NCBI GenBank assembly: GCA_016188155.1
Contig: JACPIH010000033.1
Location: 1-45,955 of the forward strand
Direction: 5' to 3'
DNA length: 45,955 nucleotides
From: Candidatus Woesearchaeota archaeon
GTDB taxonomy: Archaea; Nanobdellota; Nanobdellia; Woesearchaeales; UBA10216
Each line of letters opens with the position of its first letter. The first letter of the stretch is position 1. Below are positions 16,573 to 39,334 of this stretch, one piece after another. The position numbers and the translations under genes are program-made. The notes under the pieces are model-generated. The model did not search any database and was not told the DNA's origin. It saw only the letters and a program-made list of their open reading frames with translations.

Positions 16573-16923
16573 CTATGAGCTTTGGTTTTGCCTGCTGAGA
16601 AGTTTGACAATTTCCTTGACCAAAGCATCGAACGTGGAAGCCCTGATTTTTCCAAATGGCCTGATTACCAAGCCTTTGTCCAGGTGCATTATTTTGTCAG
16701 CACGTATCCTGCTTTTGAGGGGAAGTGTTCCGCTTTCAAGGTCTTCCCTGTCGATTACGACGCTTGGCGTTTTGATATTAAGATTTGACGTGACAGAGCA
16801 TGCGATGACGTCTTTGGTTCCCTGGTTGTAGTCATTGTTTGAAACAATGACCGCCGGCCGGATTTTGCTCTCCCCGAAACTGGAAAAGGGAAATCGCACC
16901 CACACAAGTTCCTGCTGTTTCAT
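16573..16923 (-). CDS. mazF: MazF/PemK-type endoribonuclease toxin
   Basis: MKQQELVWVRFPFSSFGESKIRPAVIVSNNDYNQGTKDVIACSVTSN matches the MazF core. Confidence 0.85.
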   Translation of the reverse strand: MKQQELVWVRFPFSSFGESKIRPAVIVSNNDYNQGTKDVIACSVTSNLNIKTPSVVIDREDLESGTLPLKSRIRADKIMHLDKGLVIRPFGKIRASTFDALVKEIVKLLSRQNQSS

Positions 16924-16924
16924 T

Positions 16925-17206
16925 TCAAGCGCCTTTTCCCTTTTTGAAAAACTTCTCCCAAACATCATCTTCCTTGCTCCACGCGCTCTCCATGGCTTTG
17001 TGCGACAGCGCCTTCCAGAACTTGTCTTCCTCGAGTGTTTCCAGGACTTCGGATTCTTTCTTCAGCAAAATATCCCCCTCCTTTTTAATCAAAACAAGCG
17101 TCGTTGTCCTGTCTATGCCGAGGTCCTTCCTGATATCTTCCGGGATAACGAGCTGGCCCCGGCTGTTAACGCTCACTGTCCTCAATTTTGTTTTCAGACC
17201 AGTCAT
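16925..17206 (-). CDS. AbrB/SpoVT-type antitoxin
   Basis: RTVSVNSRGQLVIPEDIRKDLGIDRTTTLVLIKKEGDILLKK is the AbrB swapped-hairpin pattern. Adjacent to mazF. Confidence 0.85.
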   Translation of the reverse strand: MTGLKTKLRTVSVNSRGQLVIPEDIRKDLGIDRTTTLVLIKKEGDILLKKESEVLETLEEDKFWKALSHKAMESAWSKEDDVWEKFFKKGKGA

Positions 17207-17416: not shown

Positions 17417-17466
17417 CCCAAGTCGTGCCTGCACGACTGGGCCCAGTCGACTTCTGTCGACTTGGG
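17417..17466. repeat. double-hairpin palindromic element, copy A (intergenic)
   Basis: CCCAAGTCGTGC-CT-GCACGACTGGGCCCAGTCGAC-TTCT-GTCGACTTGGG. Confidence 0.85.
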
Positions 17467-17560
17467 GCTCAACCAAAAAACGAGAAGGTCAATCAAGAAG
17501 ATAAGGCGTGTCGCCCCCTTTATTTTTTTATTCAGCTTACAAACGCTTTCGTGATTGCCA

Positions 17561-19354
17561 ATGTGCGGAATAATTGCTTATGTTGGAAACAAGCCGGCGG
17601 CAAGCGTTGTCCTTGAAGGGCTCAAGAAACTTGAGTACAGGGGGTATGATTCGTGGGGCATCGTTGCCCTCACTAACGACCTTCAGCAGCCTTTTTCTGT
17701 CATAAAAAGAATCGGAAAAATAGGCCATATAAACAGCGACTACATTAATGAGGCAATAAAGCTAGAAAGCCACACCGCACTTGGCCACACAAGATGGGCC
17801 ACACATGGGGGAGTAACTGAGCAGAACACGCATCCGCACCTTGATTGCACTGGCAGGATAGCCGTAGTTCATAATGGCATAGTTGAAAACTACCAGCAGC
17901 TGCGCAGCGAACTGGCTGGGCACGGGTTTGTGTCGCAAACAGACACAGAAGCAATACCGCACCTGATTGAGCACCTGATGGTAAAGGAAGGCATGAGCTT
18001 TGTTGACGCAGCAAGAAAAGCGGCCGGCATGCTCCAGGGGAGGTCTGCATTCGTTGCTGTAAACTCAGGAACAAAACAGGTCGTAGCTGCCAGAAAAGGC
18101 GCGCCCCTGATTTTGGGAGTGCACGAGAACAATGACAAAGAATTCTTCATAGCGTCTGACGTCACAGCCTTCCTCGACCATACAAACAAGGTGATGTACA
18201 TTGACGACAACGAAATGGCCGTAATTGATGGAAGGGCTGCCTTTTTCAACCTCACAACAGGAAATGAAACAGTAAAAAGGGTTGTTGAAATACACTGGCA
18301 TCGCGGGCACGCCAATAAAGAGGGCTATGACCACTTTCTCATCAAAGAGATTATGGAGCAGAAGGACACGCTTGCATTGGCAATAAACCAGGATGATGCA
18401 AAGATAATGGCTGTCGCTGAAGAGATAAAAGCCGCATACGGCACGTTCTTCGTCGGGTGCGGGACAGCCGGCAAGGTGTGCATGGCCGCAGACTACCTGT
18501 TTTCAAAGATTGCCAAAAAGCACGTCAATTCTGTTGTGGCATCCGAGTTCGGAAACTACCAGGACTACCTCACGCCAAAGACCCTGATGATTCCCATATC
18601 GCAAAGCGGGGAAACAGCCGACGTGCTGGAGGCAATAGACGTCGCCAAGTCAAAAAATGTGAAGGTAATCTCGCTGCTTAATGTCTTCGGCTCAACCATG
18701 ATGAGGATGAGCGACGATTTCTTCATGATAAATGCGGGAGCAGAGAGGGCTGTTGTAAGCACAAAAGCAACAACAGCACAGCTGGCCGTCGTCATGCTTT
18801 TAGCGTATGCAACAGCAGGAAAGCTCCAGGAAGGCAAGCTTCTGCTGATGAACACTGCAGCAGCTGTTAATGACATGCTTAATCCCAGGTATGATGAGCA
18901 TATCAAAAAGCTGGCAGCGCTGCTCAGTGACAGGAAAGACATGTTCGTCATCGGAAGGGGCATCAACTACCCGGCGGCGCTTGAGGCAGCAATAAAGATG
19001 CAGGAAACATGCTATACCAACGCACAAGGACTGGCAGGGGGGGAGCTGAAGCACGGCCCCTTAGCGCTTGTTGAGGAAGGAACACCATGCATAGTTCTTG
19101 TTGCCAATGACGAAACAAAAAGTGACATACTGGGCAACGCAATGGAAGTAAAGGCAAGGGGCGGATACATAATAGGCGTCTCTCCTGAAAACAACGAGAT
19201 ATTCGACTACTGGCTCAAGGTGCCTGACGTCGGAAACGCCTCGCCCATAGTGAACATAATCCCTGTCCAGATACTGGCCTACCATGTGGCGGTTCTGCGC
19301 GGATGCGATCCCGACTTTCCCAGGAATTTGGCAAAGAGCGTTACTGTCAAATAA
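17561..19354 (+). CDS. glmS: glutamine-fructose-6-phosphate aminotransferase (isomerizing)
   Basis: MCGIIAYVGNKPAA N-terminal Cys; HTRWATHG; two SIS domains; GGELKHGPLALVEEGTP; C-terminal LAKSVTVK. Confidence 0.97.
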   Translation: MCGIIAYVGNKPAASVVLEGLKKLEYRGYDSWGIVALTNDLQQPFSVIKRIGKIGHINSDYINEAIKLESHTALGHTRWATHGGVTEQNTHPHLDCTGRIAVVHNGIVENYQQLRSELAGHGFVSQTDTEAIPHLIEHLMVKEGMSFVDAARKAAGMLQGRSAFVAVNSGTKQVVAARKGAPLILGVHENNDKEFFIASDVTAFLDHTNKVMYIDDNEMAVIDGRAAFFNLTTGNETVKRVVEIHWHRGHANKEGYDHFLIKEIMEQKDTLALAINQDDAKIMAVAEEIKAAYGTFFVGCGTAGKVCMAADYLFSKIAKKHVNSVVASEFGNYQDYLTPKTLMIPISQSGETADVLEAIDVAKSKNVKVISLLNVFGSTMMRMSDDFFMINAGAERAVVSTKATTAQLAVVMLLAYATAGKLQEGKLLLMNTAAAVNDMLNPRYDEHIKKLAALLSDRKDMFVIGRGINYPAALEAAIKMQETCYTNAQGLAGGELKHGPLALVEEGTPCIVLVANDETKSDILGNAMEVKARGGYIIGVSPENNEIFDYWLKVPDVGNASPIVNIIPVQILAYHVAVLRGCDPDFPRNLAKSVTVK

Positions 19355-23789: not shown

Positions 23790-24695
23790 TCAGGCTTTCA
23801 GCCAGTCAACGTTGCTGTTTTCAAGAAGCCCAGCAATCCTCTGCTTCTCAGGCCCAAGCCCCTTCCAGTCAAGCACAACCGATTTAGCTTCCGGAACGCA
23901 AGCGCTCATTGCCTGCCGCAGCAATTCCGGAGTGAGATTCGCCAAATGGCTCCTGGGGCAGATGTGGCCCACAGCGTATTTGGAGTCCGAGTCAAGCATG
24001 AGCTTCCTGAAGCCGCTCGCGTAGTGAAGGCCGCCCAGCCCAACAACAGGAACGAAGTTGTTCTCCAGGGCAACATAGTCGCCCAGGCCGCCAATAAGGG
24101 AATCAGCAACCATAGCGGCAAGCCTTTCATCATTCCACTCCTTCCCAAGTCGCTGCGGCGACTGGGCCCAATCGGCCGCTGCCGATTTGGGTTCCGTGCT
24201 GCCCACTTCGATGAACACTGCCGGCTTTTCAATGTAAGGGCCATGATGGGTAGCCTCCTGCACAACATCCCCCTCATAGCTGCCGCTCTTGGCGACAGCA
24301 GCAAGGTTTTGGAGAAAAAGCTTAAGCAATGAGGCTGAGGTTGGGCATATCATGCCATCTTGGCCTCCGTAATCCGCCTTTCCCCAGTTGCCAACAGAAT
24401 GGGTTGTAAGCGAAGGAACCCCTGCCTTGCTGTAATGCCTTGTTGCGAAAACAAACAAGCCAGCAGAAATCCTTTTGTCAATGTTTTCACAATGGATTGA
24501 ATCAGAGGCTGTAGTGAACAGCCTTGCCTCATAGTCCTCAACTGGCAGGCTGTAGACAGCAGAGCCCTCGAAGCCCTCGCCTTTAATTTCCCCAAAGCCG
24601 TAGTTCTTCAAAAGCTGCTGCTTTATCAACATGCCTGCAACGTCCCTGGAAGAAACAATGATTGCTATTCTCTTCAAATTGGCCGTGGTTTTCAT
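23790..24695 (-). CDS. dtdA: D-aminoacyl-tRNA deacylase, archaeal DtdA/GEK1 type, carrying a 16-aa palindromic-element insertion
   Basis: AIIVSSRDVAGMLI, VFATRHYSKAGVPSLTTHSVGNWG, EATHHGP...VFIEVGSTE and GLGGLHYASGFRKL motifs. Confidence 0.92.
   Translation of the reverse strand: MKTTANLKRIAIIVSSRDVAGMLIKQQLLKNYGFGEIKGEGFEGSAVYSLPVEDYEARLFTTASDSIHCENIDKRISAGLFVFATRHYSKAGVPSLTTHSVGNWGKADYGGQDGMICPTSASLLKLFLQNLAAVAKSGSYEGDVVQEATHHGPYIEKPAVFIEVGSTEPKSAAADWAQSPQRLGKEWNDERLAAMVADSLIGGLGDYVALENNFVPVVGLGGLHYASGFRKLMLDSDSKYAVGHICPRSHLANLTPELLRQAMSACVPEAKSVVLDWKGLGPEKQRIAGLLENSNVDWLKA
24144..24191 (-). repeat. double-hairpin palindromic element, copy B (inside dtdA, in frame)
   Basis: Minus strand CCCAAATCGGC-AGCG-GCCGATTGGGCCCAGTCGC-CGCA-GCGACTTGGG = 16 codons PKSAAADWAQSPQRLG, exactly codon-aligned. 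Confidence 0.9.
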
Positions 24696-30058: not shown

Positions 30059-32599
30059 CTATAGCTGCCGCAAAGCATCCTCAATCTTTCTTGTCGAATC
30101 AACGTAGGAATCCTTGGCGGAAAAATCCAGGGGCTTGCCAAGTCTCACTATAACATCATGCCTGGCTGGCAGCTCAGGAAAAGTCTTTTTAGGGTGATAA
30201 ACCTCCCTGGCGCCTATAAGCTTAACAGGCACAACAGGCACGCCCATCTCAACAGCCAGGAACCCGGCGCCTTCCTTCAGCGGCAGCATCTTCCCGCTCC
30301 GGGAAACCCTGCCTTCCGGAAATGCTAAAACGGAAAATCCCCTGTCCAGCAGCCTGCCAGTGTACTCCAGCGAGGACTTGATCTGGCTCTGCTCCCTTCT
30401 TCCAAGTGGATAAATGTTGATAAGAAGGGTGAGGAATCCAGCGTACTTCGCAAATTCAGGATGCTCGTGCACTGCATCAATCGCTGCGGCAACCGCCAAT
30501 CTGTTTCTTATGCGCCCCGGTAAAGCCCGCATGGCAATAGGCGCATCCAATCCGCCAACATGGTTTGCAAAAAAGATAGCTGGCAGTTCGAGGTTTCTCA
30601 AATTTTCCAGCCCCTCAACCTTTGTAGGCGCATAAAAAGAAAGCCAGCTGTTAACCAAAATCTGCTGCAAAAACCATCTTATTATCCTTGCGGCTGCCGA
30701 GAGTGGCCATTCCTTAAACTCGTACTTCTCTACTTTCTGGGCTCCGGTTTCAATTTTACCTTTAAGCTCAGCAACAGACGTCTCGCTGGTAATCTCTGAC
30801 TCGTCAACTGCAATACCGAACTCTTCCTCTATTGAAGAAACCAGTTCTACCCTGGCTAAAGAGTCCAGCTTTAAGTCAGTACCGAGCTTTTTGTCATCCG
30901 TTATTTTATCCTCAGGCAATTCGCTGACTTGGGAAAGAATCTTGTAAATCCCGTGCTCTTTACTGGCTTCGGATTTCTTGGCCTCAGATTTCTCTGCCCC
31001 TGTTTCTTTCCCTTCATAAAAATGCTTCAAATATGCCAAAACTTCATTTTTCCTGACCTTTTTCGTCACGGTTCTCGGGAAATCGTCAAAAGGCCAGACT
31101 GTGAAGCCCTGAATCTGCTGATAAGCTGCCAGCTTAGAATTAACCTTTGAAATTACCTCACTCGGCTTCTTAACCCCTTTAATTCCTTCTCCCAGCAAAA
31201 CAGCATGAACCTCTAGCCTGCCGTTTCTTCTGAACCCAACCACAGCGCTGTCTTTCACTCCCTTATGCTTGTTCAGCTCGAACTCTACGTCCTCCGGGTA
31301 GACGTTTTCCCCGGCTTCGGTTATGATTACGTACTCTTTCCTGCCTTTGACGTATAAGTGGTCACCTTTGCCAAAATAGCCTATATCACCCGTCTTATAC
31401 CAGCCGTCAGCAAAGGATTCCCTGGTTTTCTTCGGATTTTTAAAATAGCCCTGGGTCACGTTTGGCCCTTTGACTAAAATTTCACCATCCCCTGCAAGCT
31501 TTACTTCCACGCCCTCAAAAGGCTTGCCCACAGAAGCAACCTTTCTATCCTCGTATCTGTTAGCCGAGATTACCGGAGAGGCCTCTGTCGTGCCGTAGCC
31601 TTGCAGTACGTAAATCCCAAACGCCTCCCATTTTTTCCCAACTTCCGCGTCCAGTGGAGCACCGCCTGAAACCACGGTGCGCAACTGGCTACCAAGTCTT
31701 TTTATAACTCTCCTGAAAATCAGCCTTCTTAGCTGCATTACTGGAATTTTAAAAGACAAGCCGCAGAGGATGTCAAAAAATTTCTTCTTTCCTCCCTTCT
31801 CTGCCACGGTTTCTATCCTTTTGGCAGTCAATTTCAGGAATTCTGGCACGGCCACAATTTTTGTGATTTTGTCGTCAACCAGGTTTTTCCTGATTGAAAG
31901 TGAGTTCAAGGATGTTGCATAAGTGACTTGTGCCCCGGCAGCCAATGGCACCAGCATCCCGCCAACCTGCTCAAACATGTGCGATAAGGGGAGGATAGAA
32001 AGAAACCTGTCATCCTTGCTTACAGGAATAGCCTTTAGGGAAGCCTTGACGTTTGAAAGGATATTCCTGTGGGTCAGCACCACACCTTTTGGAAAGCCCG
32101 TTGTTCCAGACGTATAGATTATTTCTGCAACATCATCCTCATTAATTTTAGGCTTTTTGAATTCAGGATTAAATTCTAAATGGGAAGAAAGGAGAGGAAC
32201 ATCTTCTATTTGTATTGTTTCAATGCCTTTAATTGCTGGCATGCGGCTTGATTTTATAACCAGTTTTGCTTCTGTTTGTCCTATAATTTTACTGATGAAC
32301 CCTTTTGTGCTCTGGACATTAATAGGAACGGCTACAGCGCCCTTGAGCTGAATCCCAAAAAACGAGGCAACCCACAAGTGCGAGTTCGGTGCCCAAAGCA
32401 GAACTTTGTCACCTTTCCGAATTCCAGCCTTTTCCAGCTGTTGCGCAACAAAAACAGAATATTTGAACAGGTCGCTATAACTCAAGGAGACAGCCCTAAA
32501 TCTGGGCCTTATTTTTATCGCTGTCCTGTTTTTGTAAGTTTGCGCTGCAGCTTCAATAAACTGGCCAAATGTTGTGATGTCCAAAAATTTCAGCATCAT
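30059..32599 (-). CDS. three-domain fusion: acyl-AMP ligase + acyl carrier protein + PlsC-type acyltransferase
   Basis: IIYTSGTTGFPKGVVLTHRN and GWYKTGDIG (AMP-binding); KKLGTDLKLDSLARVELVSSIEEEFGI (ACP with DSL phosphopantetheine Ser); FANHVGGLDAPI...FPEGRVSRSGK (PlsC motifs). Confidence 0.93.
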   Translation of the reverse strand: MMLKFLDITTFGQFIEAAAQTYKNRTAIKIRPRFRAVSLSYSDLFKYSVFVAQQLEKAGIRKGDKVLLWAPNSHLWVASFFGIQLKGAVAVPINVQSTKGFISKIIGQTEAKLVIKSSRMPAIKGIETIQIEDVPLLSSHLEFNPEFKKPKINEDDVAEIIYTSGTTGFPKGVVLTHRNILSNVKASLKAIPVSKDDRFLSILPLSHMFEQVGGMLVPLAAGAQVTYATSLNSLSIRKNLVDDKITKIVAVPEFLKLTAKRIETVAEKGGKKKFFDILCGLSFKIPVMQLRRLIFRRVIKRLGSQLRTVVSGGAPLDAEVGKKWEAFGIYVLQGYGTTEASPVISANRYEDRKVASVGKPFEGVEVKLAGDGEILVKGPNVTQGYFKNPKKTRESFADGWYKTGDIGYFGKGDHLYVKGRKEYVIITEAGENVYPEDVEFELNKHKGVKDSAVVGFRRNGRLEVHAVLLGEGIKGVKKPSEVISKVNSKLAAYQQIQGFTVWPFDDFPRTVTKKVRKNEVLAYLKHFYEGKETGAEKSEAKKSEASKEHGIYKILSQVSELPEDKITDDKKLGTDLKLDSLARVELVSSIEEEFGIAVDESEITSETSVAELKGKIETGAQKVEKYEFKEWPLSAAARIIRWFLQQILVNSWLSFYAPTKVEGLENLRNLELPAIFFANHVGGLDAPIAMRALPGRIRNRLAVAAAIDAVHEHPEFAKYAGFLTLLINIYPLGRREQSQIKSSLEYTGRLLDRGFSVLAFPEGRVSRSGKMLPLKEGAGFLAVEMGVPVVPVKLIGAREVYHPKKTFPELPARHDVIVRLGKPLDFSAKDSYVDSTRKIEDALRQL

Positions 32600-32985
32600 T
32601 CCACCAAAGCCACAAAAACGGCCATAGCATAATCGCCATCATGGCTTATGCTTAAGTCGCAGCTGACTATTTTGCCTTTGCTCAGATTTTTAGCAAGCTT
32701 AACAACAGGTTTTCCAGATTTTTTATTCGCAACCTCTATGTTGAGCCAAGAACCGGCTTTTAAGCTCAGCGCTTTCATTACCGCTTCTTTCGCAGCGAAT
32801 ATGCCGGCAATGTGCAAGTCGGCATAAGCCGACTGCACAGTCCTGCCGTAGCAGGACTTGTGCTTAGCTTCAGAATCTTTCAAGCTCTTCAGTTCAGAAG
32901 GCGAAAAGACAGTGTCTCGTATTTTGCCCATAACCTTCCTGAACCTTGGCAAATAAACCAAATCAACCCCAACCCTTGCACGCAT
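32596..32985 (-). CDS. acpS: holo-[acyl-carrier-protein] synthase with 16-aa palindromic-element insertion
   Basis: VGVDLVYLPRFRKVM, FAAKEAVMKALS and LSISHDGDYAMAVFV motifs. 4-bp overlap with the ACP-containing fusion gene. Confidence 0.9.
   Translation of the reverse strand: MRARVGVDLVYLPRFRKVMGKIRDTVFSPSELKSLKDSEAKHKSCYGRTVQSAYADLHIAGIFAAKEAVMKALSLKAGSWLNIEVANKKSGKPVVKLAKNLSKGKIVSCDLSISHDGDYAMAVFVALVE
32813..32862 (-). repeat. double-hairpin palindromic element, copy D (inside acpS, in frame)
   Basis: Minus strand CACAAGTCCTGC-TACG-GCAGGACTGTGCAGTCGGC-TTAT-GCCGACTTGCA. Codons 32862-32815 read HKSCYGRTVQSAYADL. Confidence 0.85.
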
Positions 32986-37207: not shown

Positions 37208-37253
37208 CCCAAATCGGCTTTGCCGATTGGGCCCAGTCGGCTCCCGACTTGGG
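37208..37253. repeat. double-hairpin palindromic element, copy C (intergenic)
   Basis: CCCAAATCGGC-TTT-GCCGATTGGGCCCAGTCGG-CTC-CCGACTTGGG. Confidence 0.88.
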
Positions 37254-37394: not shown

Positions 37395-37670
37395 ATGCTA
37401 AAGACTGTAAAAATACCTGAAGAGGCGTACAAAGATGCGAAGAGGCTAGGAAAAGTGCTGGAGGAAGAAAAGGCTATTGCCGGGGTTTACAATGTTACAC
37501 TCTCAGCTGCTGTTAGTTTCGCCCTAAACAGAACGCTTGAAGAACTGGAAAAAAGGAGAAGGTTCAGGTCTGCTGCTGGCGGCTGGAAGGATGTTGACAC
37601 TGATAAGATGATAAAAGAAATTTACGAAGGTAGAAAAACCGGCACAAAATGGGACATAAGCTTTGATTAA
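37395..37670 (+). CDS. VapB-like antitoxin
   Basis: MLKTVKIPEEAYKDAKRLGKVLEEEKAIAG...SFALNRTLEELEKRR; followed by a PIN gene. Confidence 0.65.
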   Translation: MLKTVKIPEEAYKDAKRLGKVLEEEKAIAGVYNVTLSAAVSFALNRTLEELEKRRRFRSAAGGWKDVDTDKMIKEIYEGRKTGTKWDISFD

Positions 37671-37682
37671 TGGTGAGTTCAG

Positions 37683-38069
37683 GTGTACATTGTTGATACA
37701 GATGCTTCGATAGAGTATATGAAAGGCAACCCAACTGCCATCAGTTTGCTGAACTCACTTGAAAACCTCCATCTTACAACAATGACGATAGGAGAACTTT
37801 TTTTTGGAGCTTATAATTCTGAAAAGCCCTCCAAATTCCTGCCCGTATTAGGAGATTACATCCAAAGGTTCAGCTATCTTAGCATGCAGCTATGGGACTC
37901 TGTAAAGTTCGGGAAAATAAAGGCGGCATTGAGGAGAAAAGGTGCTATAATAGGAGATCCTGACATAATAAATGCATCAATAGCCTTATCATACGATTTT
38001 ACTCTTATAACAAGAAACGTAAAGCATTATGAGAGAATAAAGGGGCTAAGAATACTAAAATTGCAGTAA
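37683..38069 (+). CDS. vapC: PIN-domain toxin, VapC family
   Basis: MYIVDTDASIEYMKGNPTAI...TMTIGELFFGAYNSEK...GDPDIINASIALSYDFTLITRNVKHYERIKGLRI. Confidence 0.88.
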   Translation: MYIVDTDASIEYMKGNPTAISLLNSLENLHLTTMTIGELFFGAYNSEKPSKFLPVLGDYIQRFSYLSMQLWDSVKFGKIKAALRRKGAIIGDPDIINASIALSYDFTLITRNVKHYERIKGLRILKLQ

Positions 38070-39144: not shown

Positions 39145-39311
39145 AAAAACCCCTCAAAACCCCTTACTCACACGCTCTTTTGAATCAGTTATCAAAAGCA
39201 ACTCATTTTAGCCCTCCTACTACTATTTATATTTTTTCGTTAAACAAAATTTGGCACCGAGAAACTTTGTTTTATGCAGTGACGAAAAATGTTTGAAAAT
39301 TAAATTTTGAT

Positions 39312-39334
39312 TGACCTTTTTTCTAAAAAGGTCA
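39312..39334 (-). repeat. GACCTTTTT hairpin directly 3' of the FKBP gene
   Basis: TGACCTTTTT-TCT-AAAAAGGTCA perfect 10-bp stem, 3 nt past the FKBP stop; minus tail ATCAAAATT. Confidence 0.8.

Follow-up and report, generated by a model that had tools for sequence, protein, structure and literature searches.

The window we analysed is contig JACPIH010000033.1 (45,955 nt) of Candidatus Woesearchaeota archaeon GCA_016188155.1, the genome referred to below as G000. On its minus strand, positions 23790-24695 hold dtdA, which encodes a D-aminoacyl-tRNA deacylase (Pfam PF04414, 2.6e-48) of 301 residues, 16 of which come from an insert at 24144-24191. The minus strand there reads CCCAAATCGGCAGCGGCCGATTGGGCCCAGTCGCCGCAGCGACTTGGG, 48 nt whose first base falls on a codon boundary and whose translation, PKSAAADWAQSPQRLG, makes up residues 169-184 of the open reading frame. 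In the computed fold the insert forms two hairpins side by side (in minus-strand order, hairpin 1 at 24167-24191 and hairpin 2 at 24144-24166). Sequence, reading frame and fold all agreed with an earlier note on this DNA, which had described a 48-bp double-hairpin palindrome lying in frame in dtdA and adding exactly 16 codons. The fold energy of the insert by itself was unremarkable (z = -1.6); what stands above chance is the family of elements to which it belongs. Its central 16-mer CGAYTGGGCCCARTCG occurs three times in the window, where 0.00 occurrences would be expected, and we found further copies of the element at 17417-17466, 32813-32862 and 37208-37253, as the note had anticipated in stating that related elements were present elsewhere in the window.

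We distinguished two types of element, for which the labels class A and class B were coined in this analysis. The dtdA copy is of class A, as are two non-coding copies: one of 50 bp at 17417-17466, upstream of a 599-residue open reading frame at 17555-19354 that we take to be glmS (from its N-terminal start MCGIIAYVGNKPA only), and one of 46 bp at 37208-37253, whose matching region in the nearest relative, G007, is free of any element. A class B element (50-nt match, TGCAAGTC..GACTTGTG) lies in frame at 32813-32862 on the minus strand within acpS (32596-32985, minus strand; 4'-phosphopantetheinyl transferase, PF01648), a second housekeeping gene of the window with an insert. It encodes about KSCYGRTVQSAYADL between SEAK and IAGIFAAKEA, and this insert was missing in four relatives. 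At 39305-39333 there is a small hairpin repeat of another kind (TTTTGATTGACCTTTTTTCTAAAAAGGTC), free of any element. Elsewhere a class A element is found at the tip of this repeat, and the flanks of the G007 element at L120:16715-16763 match the window copy at 100% identity over 29 nt.

The dtdA insert and its empty site

Residues 169-184 were missing from all 21 dtdA homologues aligned from related genomes, in which GSTE runs directly into the equivalent of KEW, and the archaeal solved structures PDB 2gfq and 1yqe both lack exactly the 16 insert residues. In G007, dtdA reads GGCAGCACGGAAAAGGAGTGG at the site where G000 has GGAA, the 48 bp and AAGG, and the joined flanks are 90% identical to those of G000 at the DNA level over 500 bp. 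The empty site GGAA/AAGG is clean in G007, with no target duplication, and removing the 48 bp from G000 dtdA gives the sequence present in G007. The earlier note had held that excision would restore GSTE-KEW and that homologues carrying the same 16 residues would refute an insertion; alignment to DtdA proteins, close relatives included, gave the precise 16-residue gap in every case, and neither the homologues nor the two structures carried the residues.

The note had also proposed that the insertion be examined on a structure. In an AlphaFold model of the G000 DtdA (mean pLDDT 86; best structural match 2gfq) the insert is placed between a strand and a helix as a low-confidence loop in an otherwise confident prediction, the lowest internal confidence of the model falling inside it (residues 174-182 except 177). 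Invariant residues S166 and W187 bracket the insert, indicating that it is tolerated near a conserved motif. The dtdA of a further relative, G001, contains a 93-bp nested double hairpin, also in frame and at another position than in G000 (L067), which we read from the alignment as an independent second insertion into the same gene.

Anatomy and dispersal of the element family

The class A consensus, CCCAARTCG-tip-CGAYTGGG followed directly by CCCARTCG-tip-CGAYTTGGG, is its own reverse complement. It describes two adjacent imperfect hairpins of ~25 nt each, with one bulged A or T in the outer arm of each, in which a constant self-complementary frame holds differing tips; class B elements have YGCAARTC...GAYTTGYR-like ends. 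Over 17 aligned copies, 97.6% of the cells of the double-hairpin structure were paired. Both-side changes were seen at 8 pairs (45 cells, against 13.5 in shuffles), with only three one-sided changes, and the ends were paired in all 17 copies. Compensated arm variants also occur in the family, with CAC/GTG or CGC/GCG in place of CCC/GGG. Covariation supported two adjacent hairpins and rejected a single long hairpin or cruciform, which was equally possible from the consensus but showed no both-side change. Among the parsed tips 46 of 58 were distinct, and their inner-stem positions comprised 108 Watson-Crick pairs, 1 G-T pair and 14 mismatches. That G-T pairs are almost absent suggests, by inference, that the pairing acts on DNA. 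Class A copies had a mean of 5.35 stop-free frames out of 6; in 200 simulations with GC-matched random double hairpins the corresponding figure was 3.9, and the highest 4.54. A common consensus makes the copies non-independent, and this openness therefore shows coding compatibility and not selection for it.

A BLAST search of G000 found 14 places at E-values of 2e-4 or less. A covariance model built from the 17 copies, whose E-values are rough, identified 46 distinct sites in G000 at E-values of 0.01 or less, most of them hit on each strand, as expected of a consensus identical to its reverse complement. Absence of the element elsewhere in the genome, which the note had named as a refuting observation, can thus be set aside. 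All eight genomes examined from the genus of G000 carry the element; it is abundant in G000, G001, G004, G005 and G007, and some other members have few copies. In the rest of the family it was present in 3 of 11 genomes, in few to moderate numbers, and it was found in none of 41 other genomes of the order. Matches in a sample of the phylum were limited to 7 of 380 genomes, making the element nearly absent outside the genus. The sole positive outside the family was G296, from another family of the class, with a single copy (L206:1501-1551) that interrupts, in frame, the gene of a Hel308-type helicase; this copy may reflect horizontal transfer or a binning error, which we could not distinguish. 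No Rfam family matched the double-hairpin element. Viral carriage was considered and rejected, as none of 15 exact 16-mer matches in IMG/VR was a double hairpin.

Copies in other genes, nesting and mobility

Besides dtdA and acpS, G000 has in-frame inserts in the gene for a DHH/DHHA1 protein (51 bp; site empty in six relatives), in ftsY (96 bp; EEPKK and GFF contiguous in G007 and G004) and in gatC (48 bp; named from its position beside gatA and its N-terminal sequence, with no family search), as well as an insert of ~69 bp net in a phospholipase-D-like gene. In G007 the genes affected are aspS (48 bp; homologous G000 site empty, and no matching residues in PDB 6wom), gatA (48 bp net; G000 empty), bud32 (four relatives without the insert), hel308 and, putatively, that of an SNase-domain protein, judged from domain length only. 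In-frame insertion together with empty sites was thus found for dtdA, acpS, the DHH protein, ftsY, gatC, aspS, gatA and bud32. The measured net coding inserts were all multiples of three (48, 51, 69, 93 and 96 bp) and open in frame, although the gene list was partly chosen as intact open reading frames and this frame test is therefore only partly unbiased.

Elements were also found inside other hairpins. The ftsY element consists of dtdA hairpin 1 (25/25 identical after removing 48 bp) with a 48-bp class B element in its tip, and the bud32 site is empty in four relatives, holds a small ATAAGGGC-type hairpin in G001, and in G007 holds this hairpin with a class B element nested within it. Element flanks paired with each other above permuted flanks (mean -8.7 versus -7.5 kcal/mol, 0/200), a modest excess whose strongest cases were mostly nested or class B copies.

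Several companion repeats were noted in passing. A third small hairpin, GATAAGGGC..GCCCTTATCAACC, is alone in G001 bud32 (L204), has class B inside it in G007 bud32 (L131:1110-1190) and occurs again at L127:13530-13615. The separate dispersed hairpin repeat seen at 39305-39333, of the form GATTGACCTTTT..AAAAGGTCAATC, often flanks elements or bears one at its tip, and is also found near G000 and G007 elements (e.g., L109:6663 and L120:16715). Both hairpins of a composite element (L202, around G007:C8:24787-24885) contain class B insertions; its hairpin 1 is a close match to the nested ftsY hairpin of G000 and its hairpin 2 is different, which suggests that hairpins may reassort as modules.

A comparison of site occupancy between G007 and G000, covering ~361 kb of ~1.2 Mb, found only one common site (arms identical, tip changed, one flank 81% identical). 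The remaining alignable sites were occupied in just one of the two genomes or altered by larger changes, so that presence/absence polymorphism is observed between close relatives. Within G007, hel308 and bud32 share an identical 50-nt element with ~19 matching flanking bases, which we interpret as recent copying. Wherever a clean empty allele was available, the class A junction was blunt (dtdA, ftsY and aspS without target-site duplication). Class A flanks were A/T-rich at the first positions; class B has an ambiguous CA as a possible target duplication. The note had read the element as a mobile palindrome tolerated as peptide. Its mobility is supported by the precise empty sites, the polymorphic copies and the identical copies in two genes, while translation of the insert remains only inferred.

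Two candidate movers were dropped. No Y1 transposase (PF01797) was found in G000, G001, G005 or G007, genomes whose completeness of 82-92% limits this negative result; Y1 genes were present in G002, G004 and G009, leaving G000 and most copy-rich relatives without one. A reverse transcriptase (RVT_1) was likewise not found in these four incomplete genomes, and was identified in three other genus members, not the copy-rich ones.

Interpretation and comparison with known systems

We consider it probable that the insert belongs to a selfish, non-autonomous kind of double-hairpin DNA element that has spread by copy-and-paste within one Woesearchaeota genus and that would be passively translated as a loop where it lands in a gene. 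The element inserts bluntly, without target duplication, often beside A/T runs and sometimes within other hairpins; such sites suggest single-stranded or cruciform DNA as the substrate, for example at a replication fork. It would be moved by unidentified machinery, with an enzyme acting in trans. Copies in genes would be retained where the net insert length is divisible by three, the frame is open (as is usual) and the site is a protein loop, and in dtdA the 48 bp would give a passive 16-residue loop beside the GSTE motif. The insertion and its in-frame gap, the dispersal, the empty sites, the nesting and the covariation were observed directly. The single-stranded substrate, the trans-acting enzyme, the translated state of the insert and the absence of a host benefit are inferences from comparing sequences of incomplete metagenome-assembled genomes, with no expression or proteomic data. 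A broader proposal is more tentative, and we offer it as possible without thinking it the likelier outcome: that these are archaeal mobile hairpins transposing through single-stranded or cruciform DNA by an unrecognised host or trans-acting enzyme, aimed at A/T-rich sites and at the tips of hairpins, which would account for the nesting, and shaped to be harmless in any frame.

The alternative that survives best, though we think it unlikely, is a functional regulatory or structural repeat of the sorts suggested for REPs (a terminator, an mRNA stabiliser, or a site for protein binding or for topoisomerase), with the genic copies as tolerated by-products. The majority of copies do lie outside confirmed genes, the arms, unlike the variable tips, show strong conservation, and the one site common to G000 and G007 has kept its arms identical with one flank 81% identical. 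However, that is the only common site between the two closest genomes, several copies are mid-gene, some genus members have few copies, and the scarcity of G-T pairs favours DNA over RNA pairing. Slightly less plausible still is a REP-type system in which the hairpins are moved by a Y1 (RAYT/IS200) transposase, present or recently lost. Short paired hairpins without target duplication fit single-strand transposition, Y1 genes do exist in three members of the genus, and intragenic REP dimers are known from bacteria (PMC3733652); yet of the element-rich genomes only G004 has a Y1 match, and the element, whose CCC/GGG ends pair, lacks an unpaired GTAG or CGTC tag. We regard as improbable that the insert is removed from RNA or skipped by the ribosome, as a bulge-helix-bulge intron or by a bypass like that of mitochondrial byps, hairpin-forming coding inserts reported from the mitochondria of Magnusiomyces capitatus (cited in PMC8211752). 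Skipping would not need net inserts that are multiples of three and open in frame, as those here are within the limits of the frame test, and no pairing of flanking exons was evident by eye in dtdA. Palindromes can arise during library preparation and tips vary among copies, but an assembly or amplification artefact, or local creation of hairpins by template switching in place of transposition, is scarcely credible and on present comparisons already contradicted by the recurrence of one consensus, in frame, at unique sites that differ between genomes and have clean empty alleles.

Under our preferred reading of a selfish mobile element, several known systems are comparable. A typical MITE has inverted repeats at its ends and target duplications that match those of a parent transposon, whereas for the Woesearchaeota element neither a target duplication nor a parent was found. 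Shortness, non-autonomy and dispersal are in common with the archaeal MITEs of Sulfolobus and Haloquadratum (PMC10969869). The earlier note named Rickettsia palindromic elements as the known analogue; these are palindromes of ~150 bp in frame in unrelated housekeeping genes, predicted to be compatible with the protein fold (PMC10969869). The likeness holds in dispersal, in copy number (46 sites in G000) and in in-frame placement in unrelated housekeeping genes, but the element here is ~48 bp, an exactly symmetric double hairpin with variable tips, nested and archaeal. Nor is that analogue the only one, as CGTC-tagged REP dimers (including RPE-4 and RPE-6) are equally close: they are paired stem-loops with no dedicated transposase, and their intragenic copies encode 20-30 residues in repair and tRNA synthetase genes (PMC3733652). 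Both GTAG and CGTC REP dimers occur inside bacterial genes, and CGTC REPs have the tag outside the pairing together with short unpaired tails (PMC3733652). In contrast, the Woesearchaeota ends pair (CCC with GGG), and the Y1 gene expected for GTAG REPs with a RAYT was not found in the four incomplete genomes listed above. Mitochondrial double-hairpin elements of Allomyces and others, adjacent hairpins read as mobile DNA (Paquin et al. 2000, cited in PMC5910586 and PMC7813641), agree in both adjacency and polymorphism; those are organellar, and common descent with the fungal elements is implausible across such distance.

We found no relevant archaeal or Woesearchaeota precedent in the literature searched, which mostly did not cover subscription papers; in PMC3733652 the word archaea occurs only in the reference list. 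To the earlier reading our analysis adds the symmetric double hairpin with variable tips, the nesting, and REP dimers as a close analogue. Selfish DNA that repeatedly adds peptide segments to essential proteins, as in Rickettsia, would thus also be at work in small-genome DPANN archaea, and would account in annotation for lineage-specific loops in archaeal enzymes. The occurrence of both empty and filled alleles, the sequence of events readable from nested insertions and the rapid change of the clade make movement of such hairpins without a known transposase directly testable. Apart from the elements, two toxin-antitoxin-like gene pairs were recognised by eye in the window, at 16573-17206 (minus strand) and 37395-38069 (plus strand), of MazF/AbrB-like and VapB/VapC-like appearance.
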